Positions 2,501 to 58,118 of a DNA stretch of 64,000 nt are shown one piece after another. The DNA is from Polytrichum commune (taxonomy: Eukaryota; Streptophyta; Polytrichopsida; Polytrichales; Polytrichaceae), in assembly GCA_950295325.1 (NCBI GenBank), contig OX485803.1, positions 17,112,001 through 17,176,000 on the forward strand, read 5' to 3'. Positions within the stretch are counted from its first letter, which is position 1. Every line of letters begins with the position of its first letter. A program made the position numbers and the translations under genes. The notes under the pieces were generated by a model that did no database searches, was not told the DNA's origin, and saw only the letters and a list, made by a program, of their open reading frames with translations.

Positions 2501-3700
2501 CATATGTTGATAGTGAGTTGGTAACTACAAGTTCATAAACTCGCACTGATTTCAAAGATACCCAGAAAAAAAAACGACAAAATCTTTCGTTGAATGGATG
2601 TGGTTGTAATAACTGATGAAATCGTACCTGAACATTGCCATAACAAATTGGAAGTTTGGCCACAAGATAATGTTGGTCGGTGGCGTTGAGGCCCAGGTAA
2701 CTTAACGGTTAGATAAGGGTTAAGTTCCATGTAGGCCGCTCGGCCCACCAAATTTGATTCGACATGTAGATGCGGCCAAATGGAATCCACATTTCCACTA
2801 ACCCTAAGTGAACCCGGTGTTGAGCCACAACTAACACGCACCCATAGAGTCCGAATTATCTCCTCCATGGTCCTTTTTGTCGTTGCATCCACCATAATAC
2901 GGTTGGTAGGACAGGCAGCCAGCTTATGCAAGGGCCAACTAACTTATAGTGGGGTGCACTAAGCGAGGTGTAAGTACGTTCCTTACCTCCGCCGTTCATC
3001 TCCAAGTGGAGAGAAGCAAAAGTCGACTAGCCATCCTTTTGAGCTGGCCGGCCCCTTGTTGCCATTCCCATATAGCTTAGCTTATCTTTAGAGGATAGGC
3101 CCCCTTACGACACCATTGCATTTCCCATGTGGGCCTCCTTTTGTCAACCTACGTGATAGAGTGGATGTAAGAACCTTTTCGGCATCCCCTAAGCACCCCT
3201 CTAAACATTAGGCACAAGGATTGACCTAGAATCATTGGCACACACACCTAGAATACCACTCTATGAAGGATATGGATTAACTCCTAACAATAAAAGGACC
3301 ACATTCATCCCCAAGCTCTCTACCTCCATTATTGGGAACTTGGAGACATGTTCACTTACGTTTCATTTTAAGAATGCATTTCTAGACATTCTTTAGGTTT
3401 CAAGAACTTCTTAATCTTGTTAAGCAACTAGATGACGGTTTCTTTCTAAAGGAAGAGGTTGCGCTTTGAAAGACCGGGTAATTTATAGTTGTTTATTGGA
3501 AACTCTTCAATTTGTAATATGAGTGCTCGCCATAAACGGGGAATCCCGAAATGGAAGGAGAATATGCATGCCTTCCTACAGAGTCCCACAGAATGCAACC
3601 CGGGAGCTAAGTAATGTTAGGTTGTACTGGGAATTTCAATATATTTTACCGTGTTTTAGATCTTTTATGCTTTGTTACAAAAGGATAGCATGCTTCTAGA
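2500..3700. other. Unassigned sequence, moderately GC-rich 2.6-3.6 kb
   Basis: The base composition rises compared with its surroundings and there is a 132-codon minus-strand frame (2533-2931). That frame has no motif I recognise and is matched by an open frame on the other strand, which is typical of non-coding sequence. It is probably an old transposon remnant, but I cannot name its class. Confidence 0.35.
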
Positions 3701-3789
3701 AGATGAAGAAGAAGAAGCATAACCATCATAACTTTTTGTTATTGGTCAGACAAGTTTGATGAAAAACTGTGTTAATTTTTGTGGCCATA

Positions 3790-4430
3790 GTATTTTATTC
3801 ATCATATCTCAAGTTTCAAATATTTGGATTTCATGTGAATTTGTATGAAAGGAGCTTGGACCTCTCTCCTCCCCTCCCCCTTGCGAGGGAATCCATGGAA
3901 AATTCAAAACATAACAAGGTGCAAGCACGGTAAATTGGACAACTCTTGATACTTGTACGGGTTTAGGTGAAAAAAACAAATACAAAGCCAAGCAATTTAT
4001 GTTGACAAAGATTATCTCAAAAAAATCCCCCATATTTTAGAAAAGAATGCAAGTGGTGATATTAAATAATCAATTGTCAAATCTATCTATCTATATCATA
4101 GAATTACATTGAATTAATGACATTTTGCAAAAATATTTCATAATACCTCAAGTGTATAATGGATTCAAGAAAAACAAAAAAATAAATGAAGTTCGATATA
4201 GTTAAGGTCATGAAACTTACATCTAAAACCAAATCTAGCCATTTACTTTTGAGCATTACTTGTAATGGTATATTTTGAAGAACTCATCTTGGTATTCTAC
4301 ATTTGACTTAACACACTAGTACAAGTCACCATGAAAAAAAATTCAAGGTAAACAACCTTTTGCTACTACTTTTAGGCATTTGACCAAAAAAACTACGGTT
4401 CTAAGATATGAGAGCATTTTTTGGTCCACT
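3790..4430. repeat. Dispersed repeat, partner of 31.4-32.0 kb in inverted orientation
   Basis: Read on the minus strand, this stretch can be matched by eye to 31,390-31,990 in the same order. Shared words include a segment on not-quite-identical T-rich flanks around 'aaattgcttggctttgta', 'gtgcttgcacc' and 'tcatgacctt', plus the phrase 'ggtcaaatgcctaaaagtag'. Copies are diverged with many small indels. It encodes nothing recognisable, so it is a non-autonomous or decayed element present at least twice in the window. Confidence 0.6.
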
Positions 4431-17600: not shown

Positions 17601-18055
17601 ACGTCAGGGGCGGTTTACACTATGGACCATGAAGTTGGACCAGGGCTCTGCAAGGCAGCTGATTGGTTGTTGAAGTTCTCCCGGGACAACTTCGGTTTAC
17701 ACTAAGGAAAAAATGGCAGAGGGACCATGGAGGTTGAGGTCCCCAAAATATAAATTTTAAGGCCTAATAAATGCAGTGACATGGTCCAACGGGTTTTACG
17801 TTGAGAGAGGCAAGAGAGGTGGTCTGGTAGGAAAAGGCAAAGGCCCATGTCAGAGAAATACCATTTCAATAAAATTTTAATAAATTTACCTTTTAAGCGC
17901 CTTAATTATACCATAGCCCATGAGACATACCAGCACTACCTTGCCCTACCCCTTAAACCGGCTCACACGTGTTTCACCAAACAACGCGGGACATCTAGAA
18001 CTCAAGAATTCAAGTGCAGATTTGTTTTTTTGGTCTACCAAATGTAATGTTTGGA

Positions 18056-18130
18056 ATTTTGGGGTGTGCAATATACCGTTGGAAAGGTCTTGAAAATACC
18101 TTTCCAACGGTATATTACACACCCCAATAT
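18056..18130. repeat. 33-bp foldback inside the TIR element
   Basis: The left arm 18,056-18,088 and right arm 18,098-18,130 are complementary at 31 of 33 positions around a 9-nt loop (CTTGAAAAT). The core of the arm is ACCGTTGGAAAGGT. If transcribed it would form a miRNA-precursor-sized hairpin. Confidence 0.9.
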
Positions 18131-18654
18131 TATTACAAAATGTAGTTGAAAAACAAAAAACAAAAATCTGTAGTGGTTTAGTGATTGTAGATCAGGGTAG
18201 TCAAAAGAAGTGCAATGGGAAATCTTCTAACATTAATTATCAAAGAATTGAAAATTAGTGTTGAGCAAGATAGGGTGGTAACAACATTAAATATAATCAA
18301 ACACTAAATATCCTATTTCGTGTAGTGACAACACAAGGTACATGTCACATGTAAATTACATTGAGCATGTACAAATTAAATTGCTCATTTTATTTTATTT
18401 AAAAAAAATTGTTGTGAGAAGATTTGCAAGCCGCATCTTCGACACATTTAACAAGAAGTGAAGACAAGTGAAGCCCAAGAGAAGACAAGGAATGATCAAA
18501 CTTAATTTTTTTTCAAAATTGCCCTTTTTGGGCATGTATTAAAAAAATCAGCACCTCCACTTTTTGGTGCATGGTCATTCTTCATGGTCCACATTCGGTT
18601 TACACCTAGTGAAGGGCCCATGAACCATGAAAACTAATATTTTAGTAACTCGGA

Positions 18655-18712
18655 CCATGGAAGTCGTCCCACGCAAAATAGGCCTCTTACGTGGGACGAC
18701 TTCATGGTCCAC
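18655..18712. repeat. Subterminal foldback of the TIR element
   Basis: GTCGTCCCACG (18,663-18,673) is perfectly complementary to CGTGGGACGAC (18,690-18,700). The pairing extends outward through the GGACCATG words with one bulge, about 21 bp in all. It lies just inside the right TIR. Confidence 0.8.
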
Positions 18713-18868
18713 AGTGTAAACCGCCCCTCAATGATCAACAACTTCAAGAGTAATGTCGCTTCATGACACTTGGCGTTAAAGTGTGCTTACTATCTTGGTT
18801 AAGTATGCTCAATACATAGTACTATGAGTGTATGCCTATGTTACACAATGGTTTACAAGTCGACGAAA

Positions 18869-19772
18869 GCGTACACAAATAATAGTTGACATTAGTATGC
18901 TAAGAAATATCTTCCTCTTGCATATAAACATATGAACACATGGTGCTTGACATCAATATGCTTAATCCTGTCTTTTTTTCCCCTGCATGCAAAAACACAA
19001 ACCTATCATCACAAGTATTGCACTGTCCAATGCTTAATGTCATACTGTAAATACTTTTTCACTTACTTATGTTAGTGTATGGTTTTGTATTGGCAATTAG
19101 TGTATGTGACACTTTGAGACCTCTAGGCATCTAGTGCAAGCCTTTCACAAATTGGGTACATGACACTAAGCGTACACAAATAACAGTTGACATTAGTATG
19201 CTAAGAAATATCTTCCTCTTGCATATAAACATATGAACACATGGTGCTTGACATCAATATGCTTAATCCTGTCTTTTTTTCCCTTGCATGCAAAAACACA
19301 AACCTATCATCACAAGTATTGCACTGTCCAATGCTTAATGTCATACTGTAAATATTTTTTCACTTACTTATGTTAGTGTATGGTTTTGTATTGGCAATTA
19401 GTGGATGTGACACTTTGAGACCTCTAGGCATCTAGTGCAAGCCTTTCACAAATTGGGTACATGACACTAAGCGTACACAAATAACACTTGACATTAGTAT
19501 GCTAAGAAATATCTTTCTCTTACATATAAACATATGAACACATGGAACTTGACATCAGTATGCTCAACACTATCTTTCTTCCCCCCCTTACATACGAAAA
19601 CACAAACCTATCATCTCAAGTATTGCAATGCCCAATACTAAATGTCATACTATAAATATTTTTTCACTTACTTATGTTAGTGCATAGTCTTGTATTGGCA
19701 ATTAGTGAATGTGACACTTTGAGACCTCTAGGCATCTAGTGCAAGCCTTTCACAAATAGGGTACATGACAAT
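18869..19772. repeat. Three tandem copies of a 301-bp unit
   Basis: Copies begin at 18,869, 19,170 and 19,471 with GCGTACACAAATAA. Copies 1 and 2 are almost identical; copy 3 has about 20-30 differences, so it is older or its own source. A degenerate trailing piece upstream (about 18,757-18,868) may be the end of a fourth copy. There is no open frame. It could be a satellite seed or internal repeats of a larger element. Confidence 0.92.
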
Positions 19773-20095
19773 AACTACCGTAAACAATGTACTACTATCA
19801 TCCTCGTGCCAAGCAAGTTACAAGAATCCCCTTTCCATGGAGGAATCGTCACTCGACAAGATGGGAAACATAGAATACAAATAGGCATGGGTGTGGGCTT
19901 GTCATCATTCCCTAGCCGAAACTTTTGGCCTATCTTTTGAAGCCCACCGAGAAAGTGCACTTCTGTGCTTATCTTGGGTACACTTGGGCCGTGGTATGTA
20001 TTCAAAGGCCTCCCAATGCCACTCCATCACTAGTGCAAGTTAGCCAGTACATCTAAGCTTATTAGTGTACACTACTTTAGTTATGTGGATCATAA

Positions 20096-23373: not shown

Positions 23374-23906
23374 GGGCCGCTTTACACCTAGAGGCCGGGC
23401 CAATTTCCCTTGAGGCCGATTGCACAAAATTTCAGCCTTTTTTGGGTTGGAGGCCGGCCTCTACTACACATTATAATAAGATTATACCGGGGGCCAATTT
23501 TCCCATATGTAAAGGCCCTCGGGCCAAGAAGCCAAGCTGATTCAAAAAAATTAGCCTAATCCAACGGATGTAGCATAATCTAAGATAGAGCCTTTAGATT
23601 CCACATAATCCAATGGATCTAGTTCACTTTAAAAAATTATACTTTATTTAACAAGATTTTTTTAGTGGAATATGACATTGGCCTCTAGGCCAAGAATTGG
23701 CCTTCCATTTTGGGTGCACCCAATTCAACGAGCTCGGGCCGTGTCATAACATACATTTTTTAATTTAAAAAATCATACCACCAAATCGGCCCGGCCTCTA
23801 GATGTAAAGGGGTTGGGGCCGATTTGAGCCTTTTGACCAATCACAAATGAGGATTTCAAGCCTCTTACACAACGAATTGGCCCGGCCTCTAAGTGTAAAG
23901 CGGCCC
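23374..23906. mobile_element. PIF/Harbinger-like MITE 1 (533 bp, TAA duplication)
   Basis: The left TIR GGGCCGCTTTACACCTAGAG and the right TIR, read on the other strand, agree at 31-32 of 32 positions. TAA flanks it at 23,371-23,373 and 23,907-23,909, the canonical TWA-type target of this superfamily. There is no transposase. An internal, inverted copy of the TIR-like sequence lies at about 23,787-23,812. The insertion sits in a copy of the 20.3-kb repeat family. Confidence 0.85.
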
Positions 23907-36999: not shown

Positions 37000-37602
37000 C
37001 ATGTTTGTCGATTTCTTACATGGATACATAGGTCCTCCCAATTATGTTCATTATTGAGTGTAGAGTGGTTTATCATATTCGAAGACGTAGGCCAATCACT
37101 TTCAAACATACGTCTTTACGATGTTTGCTCTTTGATCCCTCACCGAACCCACATACCAATCAAATGTAGGGGTCCGACTACTACTTAAGAAATGGGCCGC
37201 TTATCAAGAAAACGCATGTTTGTGGATTTCTTACATGGATACGTAGGCCCTCCCAGTTTTGTTCACTATTGAGTGTAGAGTAGTTATTCAGTATTTGAAG
37301 ACGCAATCCAATCTCTTTCAAACATGCGTCTTTACGATGTTTGCTCTTCGATCCACACCAAACCCACATACCAATCAAATGTAGGGGCCCGATTGCTACT
37401 TAAGAAATGGACCGCTTATCAAGAAAACGCATGTTTGTCGATTTCTTACATGGATACATAGGGCCCTCCCAGTTTTGTTCACTATTGAGTGTAGAGTAGT
37501 TTATCATATTTGAAGACGCAGTCCAATCTCTTTCAAACATGCGTCTTTACGATGTTTGCTCTTTGATCCCTCACCGAACCCACATACCAATCAAATGTAA
37601 GG
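37000..37602. repeat. Tandem array, 215-bp unit, about 2.8 copies
   Basis: CATGTTTGTCGATTTCTTAC (third base from the end varies) begins units at about 37,000, 37,215 and 37,430, exactly 215 bp apart. The last copy stops near 37,602, about 110 bp before the open region of the dCTP pyrophosphatase locus. Substitution differences are few, so the expansion is recent. Confidence 0.92.
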
Positions 37603-49776: not shown

Positions 49777-50465
49777 TCACTCACATGTCTTGATGATTCC
49801 AACAGCAACAAACACTTGCTTAACTTCATCCCAACTGAGGATAGGAGCGTGAATGAATGTGTCTTTCTTGTAATCTAATTTGCATAAGTAACGGACTATG
49901 TAATAGAAGTGTTTGCAGTTTATGTACATGCCACGCTTTCCAATGAATGTGCCGTTCATACTTCCATAATGGGGACAAGTACAAGATGGAAAATTACAAA
50001 GTGTGATGTTATAAACTTTCTCGTTAGAGGCGGTATTGGACGAAAGCGTGATAATAACACCAAGTTGTGTAAGAACATAGGAACACTTAGGTCCCATGAT
50101 GCAACGCACAATTTGGTCTAGACAAAACCAAAACTCCTCGATTTCAATAGTTGTACCCTTGTACTCACACTTATGCCCCTTGTAAATAGGGGTAGCAGTG
50201 GGTTTCCCATGCCTAATAACCAACAACTTGCATTTGGCTTGTGTGTGTTTTTGAATGGCGTGACATTGTTTCTTTAATTTGTGTAAGATTCTTGCTATGT
50301 GTCATTCCGATGTATCACAATCCATTTCCACCACTATTTGGATACCTTCGTAATCATTAGATGATAACTCTATCAGAAGTTCTAGGGACTCACATTTAGT
50401 ACCTTGGATATTGATGATGATAGTATTATCAGAACAAACACTTGATGGAGACTTCACTCGTACCA
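49777..50465 (-). pseudogene. SWIM zinc-finger-like protein fragment
   Basis: A 149-codon minus-strand frame (50,226-49,777) holds 'PSCTCPHYG...INCKHFYYIVRYLCKL', with the SWIM pattern CxC...CxH at residues 82, 84, 104 and 106. SWIM fingers bind zinc and occur in plant FAR1/MULE-type and in several lineage-specific proteins. Upstream the same frame continues for about 75 more codons to near 50,460, broken by a single TGA at about 50,302 that a C-to-T change in CGA would explain. Further upstream frames are broken. No start codon with context and no neighbouring exon are evident, so I call it a decayed gene or transposon-derived fragment. It could also be an exon of a gene with introns. Confidence 0.55.
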
Positions 50466-52419: not shown

Positions 52420-53700
52420 GGATGCCGTTAATGGCCACCCTTTTTTTTTAATTCCAATTCTTGTCTTCTCGTTCGGGGCGGCCGTTGATGGCCTCCCTTA
52501 CTAAAGGTTCAGTCTTCATTTAACAACATGATTTTTTTTGAAATAATCTCACACAAATGAGTCATTTTCTTTCCTTCCTAGAGAATGGCCGTTAAACAAC
52601 CACTATTTTTTTCCTTTCAATTTGTTTTACAAATATAGTTTTATTCTACATATAAACACCCACTTTTATAAAAATCATTTCCTCCATACGGGTGGCCGTT
52701 AACGGCCATCCTTTTTTCATTTCACTTGTTTTGCATATGTGGTTTTTGTTTTACATATAACACTCACTTAAGGAAAAATTCCTTTCAAAAGGTTGGCCTT
52801 TAATGGCCACTCTTTTTCCATGTCATTTTGTTTTATATATGTGGTTTCTTTCACATATAAACACTCACTCCACAAAAACATTTGACTTCCTAGAGGGTGG
52901 CCGTTAATGGTCACATGGTTTATATTTCACTCTGTTTTACATATGTGGTTTCTTCCACATATAAACATTCACTTCAACAAAAAGAAATTTGTTCCATAAG
53001 GATGGCCTTTAATGGCCACCTGTTTTTTATTTCACTTTATTTTGCATATGTGATTTTTATACATATAAACACTCACTCTTATAAAAAGAAAACATTCCTT
53101 CCATATAGGTGGTCGGTAACGGCCACCCTTTTTTCATTTCATTTTCGTTTGCATATGTGGTCTCTTCCATGTACAAACTCACTTATTCAAAATTTTCTTC
53201 TTCTTAAAGGTGGTTGTTAATGGCTAGCATTTTTTTATTTCACATGTACAAACCCACTTTCATAAGAAAACAATTCCTTCGATAAAAGTGGTCGTTAATT
53301 TTTATTTTGTTTCTTTTGCATATATAGTTTCTTTACCTGTAAACATTGACATTCATCATTTTTGGTATCCTTATTTATATTTCAATTTGCTTCACATATA
53401 TACTATCTTTTATATCTGAACACTCATATTCATCATTTTTTTCTCCTTCTATAAGGGTGACCGTTAGCGGCCATTATTTTTAGGTTTCATTTTGCTTTAT
53501 ATATGTGATTTCTTACATATGTATACACTTATTTTTTCTTCTTATTATTATAATATATTCTTTAATTTTTTTTATAAGGGTGGCTCTTAACAACCACCCT
53601 ATTTTGCATTTCATTTTACTTTGCATATGTGATTTCTTTCATATGTAAACATTTTTGTTAAATTTGGTTTTCTTTTTATATGGGTGGCACTTTTTGTGCT
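52420..53700. repeat. Tandem array, about 105-bp unit with palindromic core
   Basis: About 12 diverged units, each with a core near GTGGCCGTTAACGGCCAC. Examples lie near 52,425, 52,480, 52,583, 52,690, 52,790, 52,893, 52,999, 53,107, 53,209, 53,458 and 53,578. Each core is followed by CTTTTTTCATTTCA, then TTGCATATGTGGTTTCTT and CACATATAAACACTCACT. The core is a self-complementary 16-18-mer that stays largely paired despite divergence. The unit holds no fixed open frame. It ends just before the first exon of the ParB-like pseudogene. Confidence 0.88.
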
Positions 53701-56278
53701 TTAGATATGAAAGTTCTACCTTATTCTAAAGATTAATTGGAGTTGCAATTACAAGCATGTTTTACGAAAGAAATTGTTAAGACCTCTTTCATTCTTGAAC
53801 GGTTGTGGTATCAACTAAGGACAAAATCAAAATTTAATATTCCACTATATCAAATGGTTTCATTGCCAGTTGTTAGGCCTTTCTTGAAAAATGATGTTAT
53901 GAATTTGGCCACACATTTTGTTGCTTGTGGTTATGTGAAGGAAATATGATTTTTTATGTGGCCTTGGAGAACAATGAGGGCCATACAATAGATGTTTAAG
54001 ATATTATAATTGAATCATGAAGTGATAATTAGGTGTGGACAAATGCTATTTTTGAGAAAATATTGCAAAATAATGGAAACCTCAAAATTTTGTCTGGCAA
54101 AATATTGATGATTTGGGACGGCAACCATCGTTTGCAAGCTTGGTTGTTCATTATTAATCGAGATCACACATATGATTCCACTTGACATTGTGATGTTGAA
54201 AATATTATTATGGACGTCAAGGACTATATTGCAATTATGTTGGCAGCTTTGCATAAAGTCAATTGGTGATTTCTTCATTTTTGTCTTTTTGTATGTTCTT
54301 TCATTTGTTTTTTTTAATGTTTACTTTCTAGAATTTTTTTTAAAAATTTTTGTCATAAAGAACCAAAAATCTCATGTTTCTACAAATGTTGTTCATAAGT
54401 TGTTTCGCATTCAAAGCATTGTTAGGCAATCACTTTCATATTTTGAAAGACTTGTCTTTAAAGAAGACATTTTTACTACTAATGCCAAAAAATCCAAACA
54501 TAGAACTTGGTTTACTTTGGTTGTTGAGGCTCGTAATGGATTTCTATACCTAGTTATTTTCTCTAAAATATCAATTTCCTTTATATATTTTTTCTACTTC
54601 TTGTATATTTCCTTTGTTCTTGTTGTTCATTTGGATTTCTACTATCATATTTTTTATTGCATCTTCATTTTTTATTATGTGTAATTTTTCATATTCTTCT
54701 ATGTTATTTTCCTTGTGTAGCTAGAATTGGGGGATGTTGTTGTTGCTGCTCAAATTTTTTTTTATGAAAAGTACTTGGATCATGCACATTGGATTTTAAG
54801 TGCAGTTGATGAATGAGTTTCCAAAATTGTTGATAGGGTGAAATTAACTTCCCATTCGGAACTGAATAAACAACTTTATATTGCATATCCTAAATCTACT
54901 ATTTTGATCTTAGAGCATGTGAATTCTTATTATGAAACTCACGATGAGAGTCCTGAGATGACTAAAAAAAAAACTTTGGATGTTGGCAACTTCAACTATG
55001 GACACTTCTATGAAAATTAAGTGACTTAAGAGGTAGAACAACTCACCTACTCTTTGTGAGGCTCTCAATTTTTCAAAACCAAAGTTCAATGATATAGCGT
55101 TACATTAATCACCCCCCCCTCCATGTACATGGCCCATCACGTGGGCAACGTTTCTTTTCAACCCGTCCCTGAGTCAGCACGAGCTGACCAGCAACCGGTT
55201 TAGCCGGTCATGGTAGTTCGCCATGGCAGGGTAGTTTGTCATCGTTGCAGTTGCTTGGTACTTCTCCGTCGGGCGAGCTAGGTAATGAATTCTGACTTTG
55301 GTCCTGCGATAGCATAGATCTTGTCCTGCGATTAGAGTGTTGTGTTTGTGCATTTCCCGCCATTCTTGTTTTGCATGATGTGTGCCTTGCTTGCACTGTG
55401 TTTGGAGTGGATTTTGGGTTGTGGGTTTTCGAGATGCTTAGGGTTTAGGTTGAATCTTCTTCAGTCAGTGAGTGAAAATGGTCGGGATTTGGAGTTTAAG
55501 CCTTCAACCGAGTGAAGCTACAACCAAATTCATCTTCTTCGGTTAATATCATCTTTCACTTCAAAATTTGAACGGTATGAAAAAGAAAAGTCTGGTGAAA
55601 TGTTTGGGTGTCGTCCCGACATTCTTTGCATACTTACTTGAATTTGCTTGGACATGCTCTAGTGCATCCCATATGGCTACCGATAAGGCTAACCAAGCCA
55701 AGGATGCCGCCGGGAGTGTCCTTTAGCAGATAGATTCAGCAATTGTTTCGATTGCACCATAGTTCAGAGTTATGCTTGAATCTTCTTCTGTCAGTGTGAA
55801 AATTCTTGGGTGTCGGAATTGAATTTACCTTCATCTTGGAAAATTCCAAAGTCTGTTGGGAAATCGGTCTTCGTCTTTGAACTCTAAAATCTGAACATTC
55901 CTAATTGCTTTAACTTGTGGGGGATTCAATTCTTTCTTAGGCATCTTGAGATTTGCGTTGTCTGAACATAGAGCTTTACTTCTTTGAATCTTATCTAGGG
56001 CGTACTACTGATATATTTTGTGTGCTCACTTGAAGTTGTGAGGGTTACATTCATTCTTGGCCATTGCTGAGATTTGGGTGGGGTGAATGTTTGGGTATTA
56101 TAAGATTCTGGTACTCTTGACGTCATTGCCTGAATTTGTGAGGGGTTTGTTCTTTCATGGTGATGATACTTGCTAATATATTCGTGTTGTCTGTAACCAT
56201 GGTTTATAAATTCACAAGAAGCACACAGAAGTGATTTTAAAACAATTGGTCTAAAAGGGAGGGTTGCCATCATGCAGG

Positions 56279-56578
56279 CAAGGGAGAGAGCGTATGAGGA
56301 ACTGTTGCAAAAGGCGAGCGAGTATCAAAAGACAAATAAATTGGAATCTATGTTCCTTCCACCCAGACCACGTTTTGGGAATGTGGTGGTTGAAGCTCAA
56401 GCTATTGAAATCAAATTTTTTGCATTTCAATTTTTTTGCATTTTAGTTAAGTGGACGAACATTATATGTAGGTTGTGTTCTTGTTGTTGATAAGTTGGAT
56501 CAACTTGCAGGTATTGTTGGGGTCATTGGAGGAAATGGGGCAGGGAAAACCACTCTTTTCCATATGATAATGGGCCAG
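56279..56578 (+). pseudogene. EttA-like ABC-F ATPase, two captured exons
   Basis: The first piece (from 56,279, after acceptor ATGCAG) reads 'ARERAYEELLQKASEYQKTN' and continues to 'RFGNVVVEAQAI' (ending about 56,410). This is the linker between the two ATPase domains in EttA-type ABC-F proteins. The second (about 56,478-56,578) reads '[20 protein letters not shown]' then '[10 protein letters not shown]', the Walker A of the second nucleotide-binding domain, with Pro to Gly in GPNGAGK. It ends at donor GTACGG. ABC-F proteins act on ribosomes, not membranes. Flanking intron sequence and splice signals are present, so the capture was from genomic DNA. No other ABC motifs (signature, Walker B) follow. 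It cannot encode a working ATPase. Confidence 0.75.
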
Positions 56579-57303
56579 GTACGGCAATTTCTTCACTTTG
56601 GTTCTTTCATATGCAAAAATGGTGTTCACTTCAACAACCAGGTCATAGAAAGTGGAATGCACATGCTTTAATGTTGTGCACGAGCTGACTGTCACCTGAC
56701 CAACTGGTGCAAGCATGGCAAGCAATGAGAACTACAAGAGGAATGCAATCTGGACAGACATAGGATTAACATCTGACACACAAACGGATTCTGGCAGTAT
56801 AAGAGCAACACCCTCCTCGTCCCTATTTTAGATTATGATCATTGGACTCTTATTGTGCTCTCTAAACGCCAGTTCCTGAAATTCGACTCAGTTTATGATG
56901 GGTCCTGGCATGGAACAGAGAGACTCCATACACTTCTGGGAAGACTCTGGGCATTGCATGTTGGTGTGGAGGAGTTTGAAGAACGGGAGATTGCCGGCAA
57001 TATGCGGTCGTGGAGCCATGCTGCATGTTTGCAACAAATTGGCAAAACTGAGTGCGGTTGGATGACGATGTGGAACCACAACCTACACCACAAATTGCAA
57101 CCAAAGTACATAAACAAGACATGAAAAACAAACAAACCCTAATTCAAGAAACACAACAACACATAACTAGTCACTTCCAAGGTAAGCCCCCAACCAGCGC
57201 CCCCAAACCCTAAATTGTTGAGCCTCCGACCCTGAACCCTAAGTCAACACTTTTCAGATCCACAATTTCCGACAGGACAAGATCAGTCTTGCAGCACAAC
57301 AAA

Positions 57304-57395
57304 AATTTCGTCGACGGATGGCACTGAATTGTCGTCAACGGAGGCTTGGGAACGTTGTCGACGGAGGGCGGGGAACGTTGTCGACGGGAGCAAGG
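57304..57395. repeat. Subterminal GTCGACGG repeats of the MULE-like element
   Basis: About four units of 22-26 bp: TCGTCGACGGATGG, TGTCGTCAACGGAGG, TTGTCGACGGAGGGCGG and TTGTCGACGGGAGC. MULEs often have such subterminal repeats as transposase-binding sites. Confidence 0.65.
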
Positions 57396-58118
57396 GAAGC
57401 GGGCAGTTGGAAAAGACCAAGCTGCCCGACGTCGCCAAAATTCCTCGATTTCGGGCAGATTTTGCCGGGCAGCGGCCTGACGTCATACGGTGGAAAGGGG
57501 GTGATTAATGTGAGCCAATGATATAGAGTTTCCTAAGTGGCTTTATAAAGCTACTTGATGAGCTCATTTTATTATTTTTATTTTTATTTGTTTTGGTTCA
57601 TTCATTTCTTTTTTCAATCATTAAAACATATTGACTTTTATTTTGTATATAGCAATTGCTTATTGAAACCGATAAGCTCTTTGATGCTATTGTGGATAAT
57701 CTGGATATGTCCATCAGTTATCTTCCAGATGGTATGGACCTTTTGCCCATTATTATTTTTATTATGTGGAGACAATGCGCATATCGTTATAGGATACTGC
57801 ATTTTTTGTTAATTTGTTGTTGATAAGGGAGTTCACAAAACCAAAACATTGACAAACAACTCAACTTCAAACCAGTCATGCAAAGGGCATTTAACAGGTA
57901 CTTCAAATATCATATTCTGTACTTAAGCCATCTCCAAATCTCCTAGTTTTTTTGATATAGAAAATGAATAGTGTATGTTCACAGAAGAGATCATGAAATC
58001 TTGGGATCTTATGCATTTTGAAAAATGTGGATTGTATTTGGATTGTGTTCTTGAAACACCTCCCACTTTTGATAATGCCCTTCGAGATTCAATTCAACCC
58101 GCCCTCAAGGATGCGAAG

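Follow-up and report, generated by a model that had tools for sequence, protein, structure and literature searches.

Pack-MULEs, Mutator-like elements (MULEs) bearing Ulp1 genes and organelle-type EttA of plants are all already known. The Pack-MULEs of rice usually have long terminal inverted repeats (TIRs) of about 100 bp or more. A Ulp1-like protease is carried as a further gene by the Kaonashi/KIU elements of Arabidopsis and by MULEs of melon, rice and grapevine, and the grapevine elements occur both with and without TIRs, according to two sources (PMC13317346, PMC2528002). Since MULEs without TIRs exist, as these sources indicate, long TIRs are taken here as typical of Pack-MULEs but not as defining them. 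For EttA, a further source places cpEttA in plants and diverse algae (PMC6723617). Judged by titles, the papers listed include none on Pack-MULEs in bryophytes, and no paper joining Mutator-like elements and Ulp1 in gymnosperms was found.

The window analysed here is the whole 64-kb stretch C1:17112001-17176000, and the segment under study is its positions 55098-57515 (2418 bp, also numbered q1-2418). Very probably this is a non-autonomous Mutator-like element (a Pack-MULE), the capture history proposed below included. The genome also contains its larger relatives, its donor genes and uninterrupted copies of its target site, which makes it a well-documented element, though one of an ordinary kind, and one assembly thereby offers a near-complete record of the making of a single Pack-MULE, with the parent family, the donors, a sister with other cargo and the empty targets. 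Like the Pack-MULEs of rice and other angiosperms, it is non-autonomous, has MULE ends and a 9-11 bp duplication, and holds several intron-bearing host fragments from unlinked loci with short overlaps at the junctions. In contrast to them, it has no TIR of about 100 bp or more, only 15 bp being perfect, few copies were found (at least five left ends), and the same captured EttA piece recurs on contig C6, where the family ends around it also enclose a transposase. The family may resemble the Ulp1-carrying MULEs in having a putative Ulp1-like protease domain, but it has a short TIR where KIU is non-TIR, and its protease is divergent (no Pfam match), with half the domain left in the element. The EttA fragment, like the cpEttA/mEttA of plants and algae, derives from a nuclear, intron-bearing gene; it differs in the loss of about 18 residues, and its donor is a putative organelle-type gene. 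The parts of the mosaic run in the order left end, LEA-like intron, EttA exons with introns, 61-bp piece, half of a Ulp1-like domain and right end, and are given below by window position and strand:

55087-55097, unstranded: left copy of the target-site direct repeat CAATGATATAG, from the exact repeat and the empty-site paralogues (probable true duplication 9-11 bp)
55098-55448 (q1-351), plus: MULE left-end module, at least five genome copies
55102-55116, plus: left terminal inverted repeat, 15 bp long; elsewhere most left ends have GCGTCACATTAATCACC
55449-56204 (q352-1107), plus: piece captured from an intron in a LEA-like gene, with its donor at C1:15993852-15994597 (95%), exon limits set by eye
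56206-56727 (q1109-1630), plus: EttA fragment captured as genomic DNA, introns included, and with an internal deletion; donor C3:18647173-18648039 on the minus strand
56279-56412, plus: truncated EttA exon (ARERAYEELL..VVVEAQAIE), from the PDB match and donor alignment
56511-56578, plus: EttA Walker A exon of 23 residues, with AG and GT alongside as in the native gene
56725-56785 (q1628-1688), plus: 61-bp piece, matching C1:36637670 (98%) and, over 59 bp, C1:41257470 (86%)
56783-57076 (q1686-1979), plus: Ulp1-like cysteine protease domain, its C-terminal half only (96% identity with the C6 copy)
57078-57515 (q1981-2418), minus: module of the MULE right end, near which transposase-like frames begin in larger relatives and read inward
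57497-57511, minus: right terminal inverted repeat, 15 bp long; most right ends have (G)GCTCACATTAATCACC
57516-57526, unstranded: right copy of the direct repeat CAATGATATAG, from the exact repeat and the empty-site paralogues

A preliminary description of the window had proposed a gene-capturing Mutator element here, with perfect 11-bp direct repeats, inverted ends and no transposase. The direct repeats are indeed exact, with two copies of CAATGATATAG in the 64-kb window (55087-55097 and 57516-57526). The inverted ends are likewise exact, ACATTAATCACCCCC lying at 55102-55116 and its reverse complement at 57497-57511 with one occurrence each in the window, although this perfect 15-bp repeat is set 4 bp inside the direct repeat at either side, a spacing that the description needs to have corrected. 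The outermost 4 bases are unlike between left and right and the perfect TIR is just 15 bp long, both of which count against the proposal. When perfect inverted repeats of at least 12 bp, 0.5-10 kb apart and with a perfect direct repeat of at least 8 bp within 6 bp, were scanned for, the real window gave two matches, the element itself (15-bp and 11-bp repeats) and 17623-18591 (12-bp and 10-bp), and 60 first-order Markov windows gave three in total, each with a direct repeat of 8 bp. As described, no transposase was found within the element: its longest stop-free frame has 115 codons, and none of its 11 frames of at least 75 codons (ten searched whole, the eleventh as 74 residues) gave a Pfam transposase match.

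The right flank of the element belongs to a high-copy repeat with 101 candidates in the genome; 40 were scored and 40/40 match, the window itself included. In each of the next 15 target paralogues in rank after the window, both flanks align with 77-83% identity, and where they join, the site or a sequence close to it stands just once. The direct repeats, on this comparison of sequences, thus behave as a target-site duplication, and the prospect that they might be no duplication finds no support in these 15 single-copy paralogues. The length given earlier is less secure: at the target, C precedes AATGATATA and G follows it, and since the family ends mostly bear the same letters, a duplication of 9, 10 or 11 bp would fit. 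The frame across the joined flanks has 30 codons and no Pfam match, and is too short to weigh as evidence.

A search of the 407.8-Mb assembly (64 contigs) with the element returned 21 matches, which divide it into modules. Searched for singly, the left end was found at least five times and the right end at least five times, with one further 34-bp piece of the latter, these counts being lower bounds. The preliminary description had suggested looking for copies that share both ends and differ in cargo, and one was found on the same contig at C1:20244889-20247633, its cargo partly different. This sister has q1-1215 and q1981-2418, and between them 921 bp foreign to the element, matching C3:28122978-28123195 (99%) and C5:18583583-18584289 (96%) in two donor matches that overlap by 4 bp. 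The frames around the C5 donor piece give an FHA domain (E=2.7e-5 for the first alone, 9e-12 for both linked by X, no FHA match for the second alone), and the piece, being located between these two frames, looks like an intron. By eye, the sister is flanked by a 9-10 bp duplication that has a single mismatch; the member at C3:28058441 gave no clean empty site for it. A C5 member (11476433-11522021) has 45.6 kb between its ends and, also by eye, a perfect 9-bp duplication, ACAAATGTA. On C6, a left and a right end lie 24.1 kb apart and show no matching duplication, so that they may not belong to one element. Between these two ends lies a nearly fresh LTR retrotransposon (L093/L094, C6:5170398-5181938), with LTRs 99.95% identical. 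For the right end at C6:5139302 and the left end at C3:28058765, no partner ends were found in the stretches fetched.

The ABC-F exons reported earlier are real, and an EttA gene containing them, as sought elsewhere in the genome, exists: the best PDB matches of 56279-56412 joined to 56511-56578 are EttA chains (E about 1e-12), and a multi-exon gene on C3 (about 18644070-18652488) holds the same exons and introns. The description of these exons as bearing their splice sites holds in part, the first being truncated at its 3' end with its 5' splice site lost. With a bacterial EttA as tblastn query, the exons of the donor gene cover residues 13-76 and 106-556, with a gap at residues 352-373 that corresponds to the Walker A exon visible in the DNA alignment; on C3 no match was found for residues 77-105, nor was a start or a targeting peptide located there. 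A scan of bacterial EttA gave, among the best 80 of 458 confirmed stretches, mostly gammaproteobacterial ones (36-45% identity), from which no firm conclusion about origin follows. The alignment of element and donor spans exons and introns, and because the two are held together in the element, the source of the capture was genomic DNA. With about 18 residues and one splice site gone, the piece is, on its sequence, a pseudogene fragment that cannot be a working factor.

The same piece also matches C6:5167864-5168373. Both copies lack the same roughly 360 bp, which take in the last part of one exon with its 5' splice site and the greater part of an intron, and in 506 columns compared with native EttA they differ from it alike at 11, the element alone at 13 and the C6 copy alone at 4. 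Because this deletion and these 11 bases are common to both, EttA was probably captured once, before the element arose. A fresh capture by the element from the native gene, independent of the C6 copy, would accord with its 95-96% identity to that gene over two blocks, which is near its 96.6% identity to the C6 copy; it is nevertheless improbable, in view of the shared deletion and bases and since the native stretch present in the element lies wholly within the longer one of the C6 copy, which covers 2917-4137 of the native EttA locus L096.

Near the right ends of the MULE family, inward-running frames were found twice on C6 and once on C5. Beside one C6 right end, the MULE transposase domain PF10551 was matched (E=3.3e-7, 31.1 bits against a cut-off of 27.6) only after the frame pieces had been joined by X, and one frame beside the same end matches a SWIM finger just above its cut-off (20.2 against 19.6). 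The remaining transposase-like frames tested, including that on C5, gave no Pfam match at E 0.01. The C6 transposase lies in interrupted frames whose breaks could be introns, frameshifts or stops. Its two regions, L090 (C6:5142162-5145487) and L095 (C6:5186110-5189440), are 99.8% identical over 3331 bp and lie in opposite orientation about 41 kb apart, which suggests recent duplication or movement. Membership of the Mutator superfamily, as first proposed, is supported by PF10551 and the SWIM finger near the same right end. The short inverted repeats of the element could also suit a TIR element from outside the Mutator superfamily (hAT, CACTA, PIF/Harbinger) that had filled up with gene fragments, such Pack elements being reported (PMC8903248) in several rice and maize superfamilies. 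Against this stand the lengths of the duplications, which are 9-11 bp in the element itself and, in two other members, a perfect 9 bp (C5) and 9-10 bp with a single mismatch (the sister), together with the MULE transposase domain adjoining the C6 right end, so that such an assignment is highly improbable. Elsewhere in the window, a 174-aa frame at 49780-50301 (minus strand) has a CTCP...CKH pattern like a SWIM finger and by eye resembles a frame in the C5 locus (L097:5015-6175); neither frame gave a Pfam match.

The content of the element is wider than the EttA exons that were recognised at first, the LEA and Ulp1-like parts having been overlooked. In the LEA donor, the exon before the intron carries LEA-type repeats and the one after it is short and the last (limits by eye); the LEA_4 match of the repeat-bearing exon (E=7.1e-5, 23 bits) falls under the curated cut-off of 51.1. 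The frame of 115 residues at 56777-57121 shows the Ulp1 order of H, D, Q and C (H-D 15, D-C 56, Q-C 6); a regular expression for this motif, composed after the frame had been seen, matched once in the window and in 1/100 second-order Markov windows. A Ulp1-like SUMO protease is the single PDB chain matched, at E=0.22 by the piece in the element and at E=0.0014 by the longer C6 frame, which matched no other chain; Pfam gave no C48 match for either frame, and AlphaFold modelled the 115-aa fragment alone with a mean pLDDT of 41. The segment also matches C6:5185062 and C5:11517449, the latter, in the C5 member, at 81% and with stops. Since the C5 member contains it too and another copy lies between the C6 ends, the simplest reading is that of a gene belonging to the family and not of fresh cargo. 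At two junctions of the element the donor matches overlap by 3 bp, and at the other three they show no overlap, abutting or standing 1 bp apart; for animal Pack-TIRs, a median overlap of 2 bp is reported (PMC8277862).

That a decayed native ABC-F gene lies here and not a mobile element, as EttA exons with splice sites in order might suggest, is scarcely conceivable given a multi-exon EttA gene on C3, the joining of unrelated donors, the family ends and the empty paralogous target sites; nor is the segment colinear with a native ABC-F locus, because its pieces match C1, C3/C6 and the MULE itself.

For the Pack-MULE, a history in four steps may be proposed. First, a MULE still equipped with a transposase, and bearing a Ulp1-like gene, would have taken about 1.2 kb of nuclear EttA, within which about 360 bp were lost. 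Second, a descendant would have lost the transposase and most of the interior and gained a piece of the LEA-gene intron beside the one from EttA, template switching during gap repair being the probable means, as the 3-bp overlaps at two junctions suggest. Third, the element and its sister would have taken or kept differing middles. Finally, because the element has no transposase, that of a larger relative would have moved it in trans, leaving the 9-11 bp duplication. The likely order is capture first and shrinking later, because the shared EttA deletion appears to put the piece in an ancestor common with the C6 copy, whose flanking family ends also enclose a transposase, with the caveat that these ends are without a matching duplication and have a nearly fresh LTR retrotransposon between them. 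More broadly, we consider it an evenly balanced question whether this is a short-TIR MULE family, possibly of a non-seed plant, one member of which still bore a transposase when it captured an organelle-type EttA piece and was cut down to Pack-MULEs only afterwards, in an order readable from the shared deletion. Such an order would bear on the question of which elements do the capturing, those of full size or those that have been shortened beforehand.

The window holds several other features. Two elements at 17607-18727 and 23374-23906, which resemble the PIF/Harbinger type, have the inverted ends GGGGCGGTTTACAC and GGGCCGCTTTACAC and the flanks TCA and TAA. A plus-strand frame at 38618-38929 matches a MazG-like nucleotide pyrophosphohydrolase (PF12643, E=7.1e-11) and is probably an ordinary plant gene. 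Tandem arrays occupy 18867-19774 (period 301 bp), 37000-37599 (215 bp) and 52607-53247 (104 bp).
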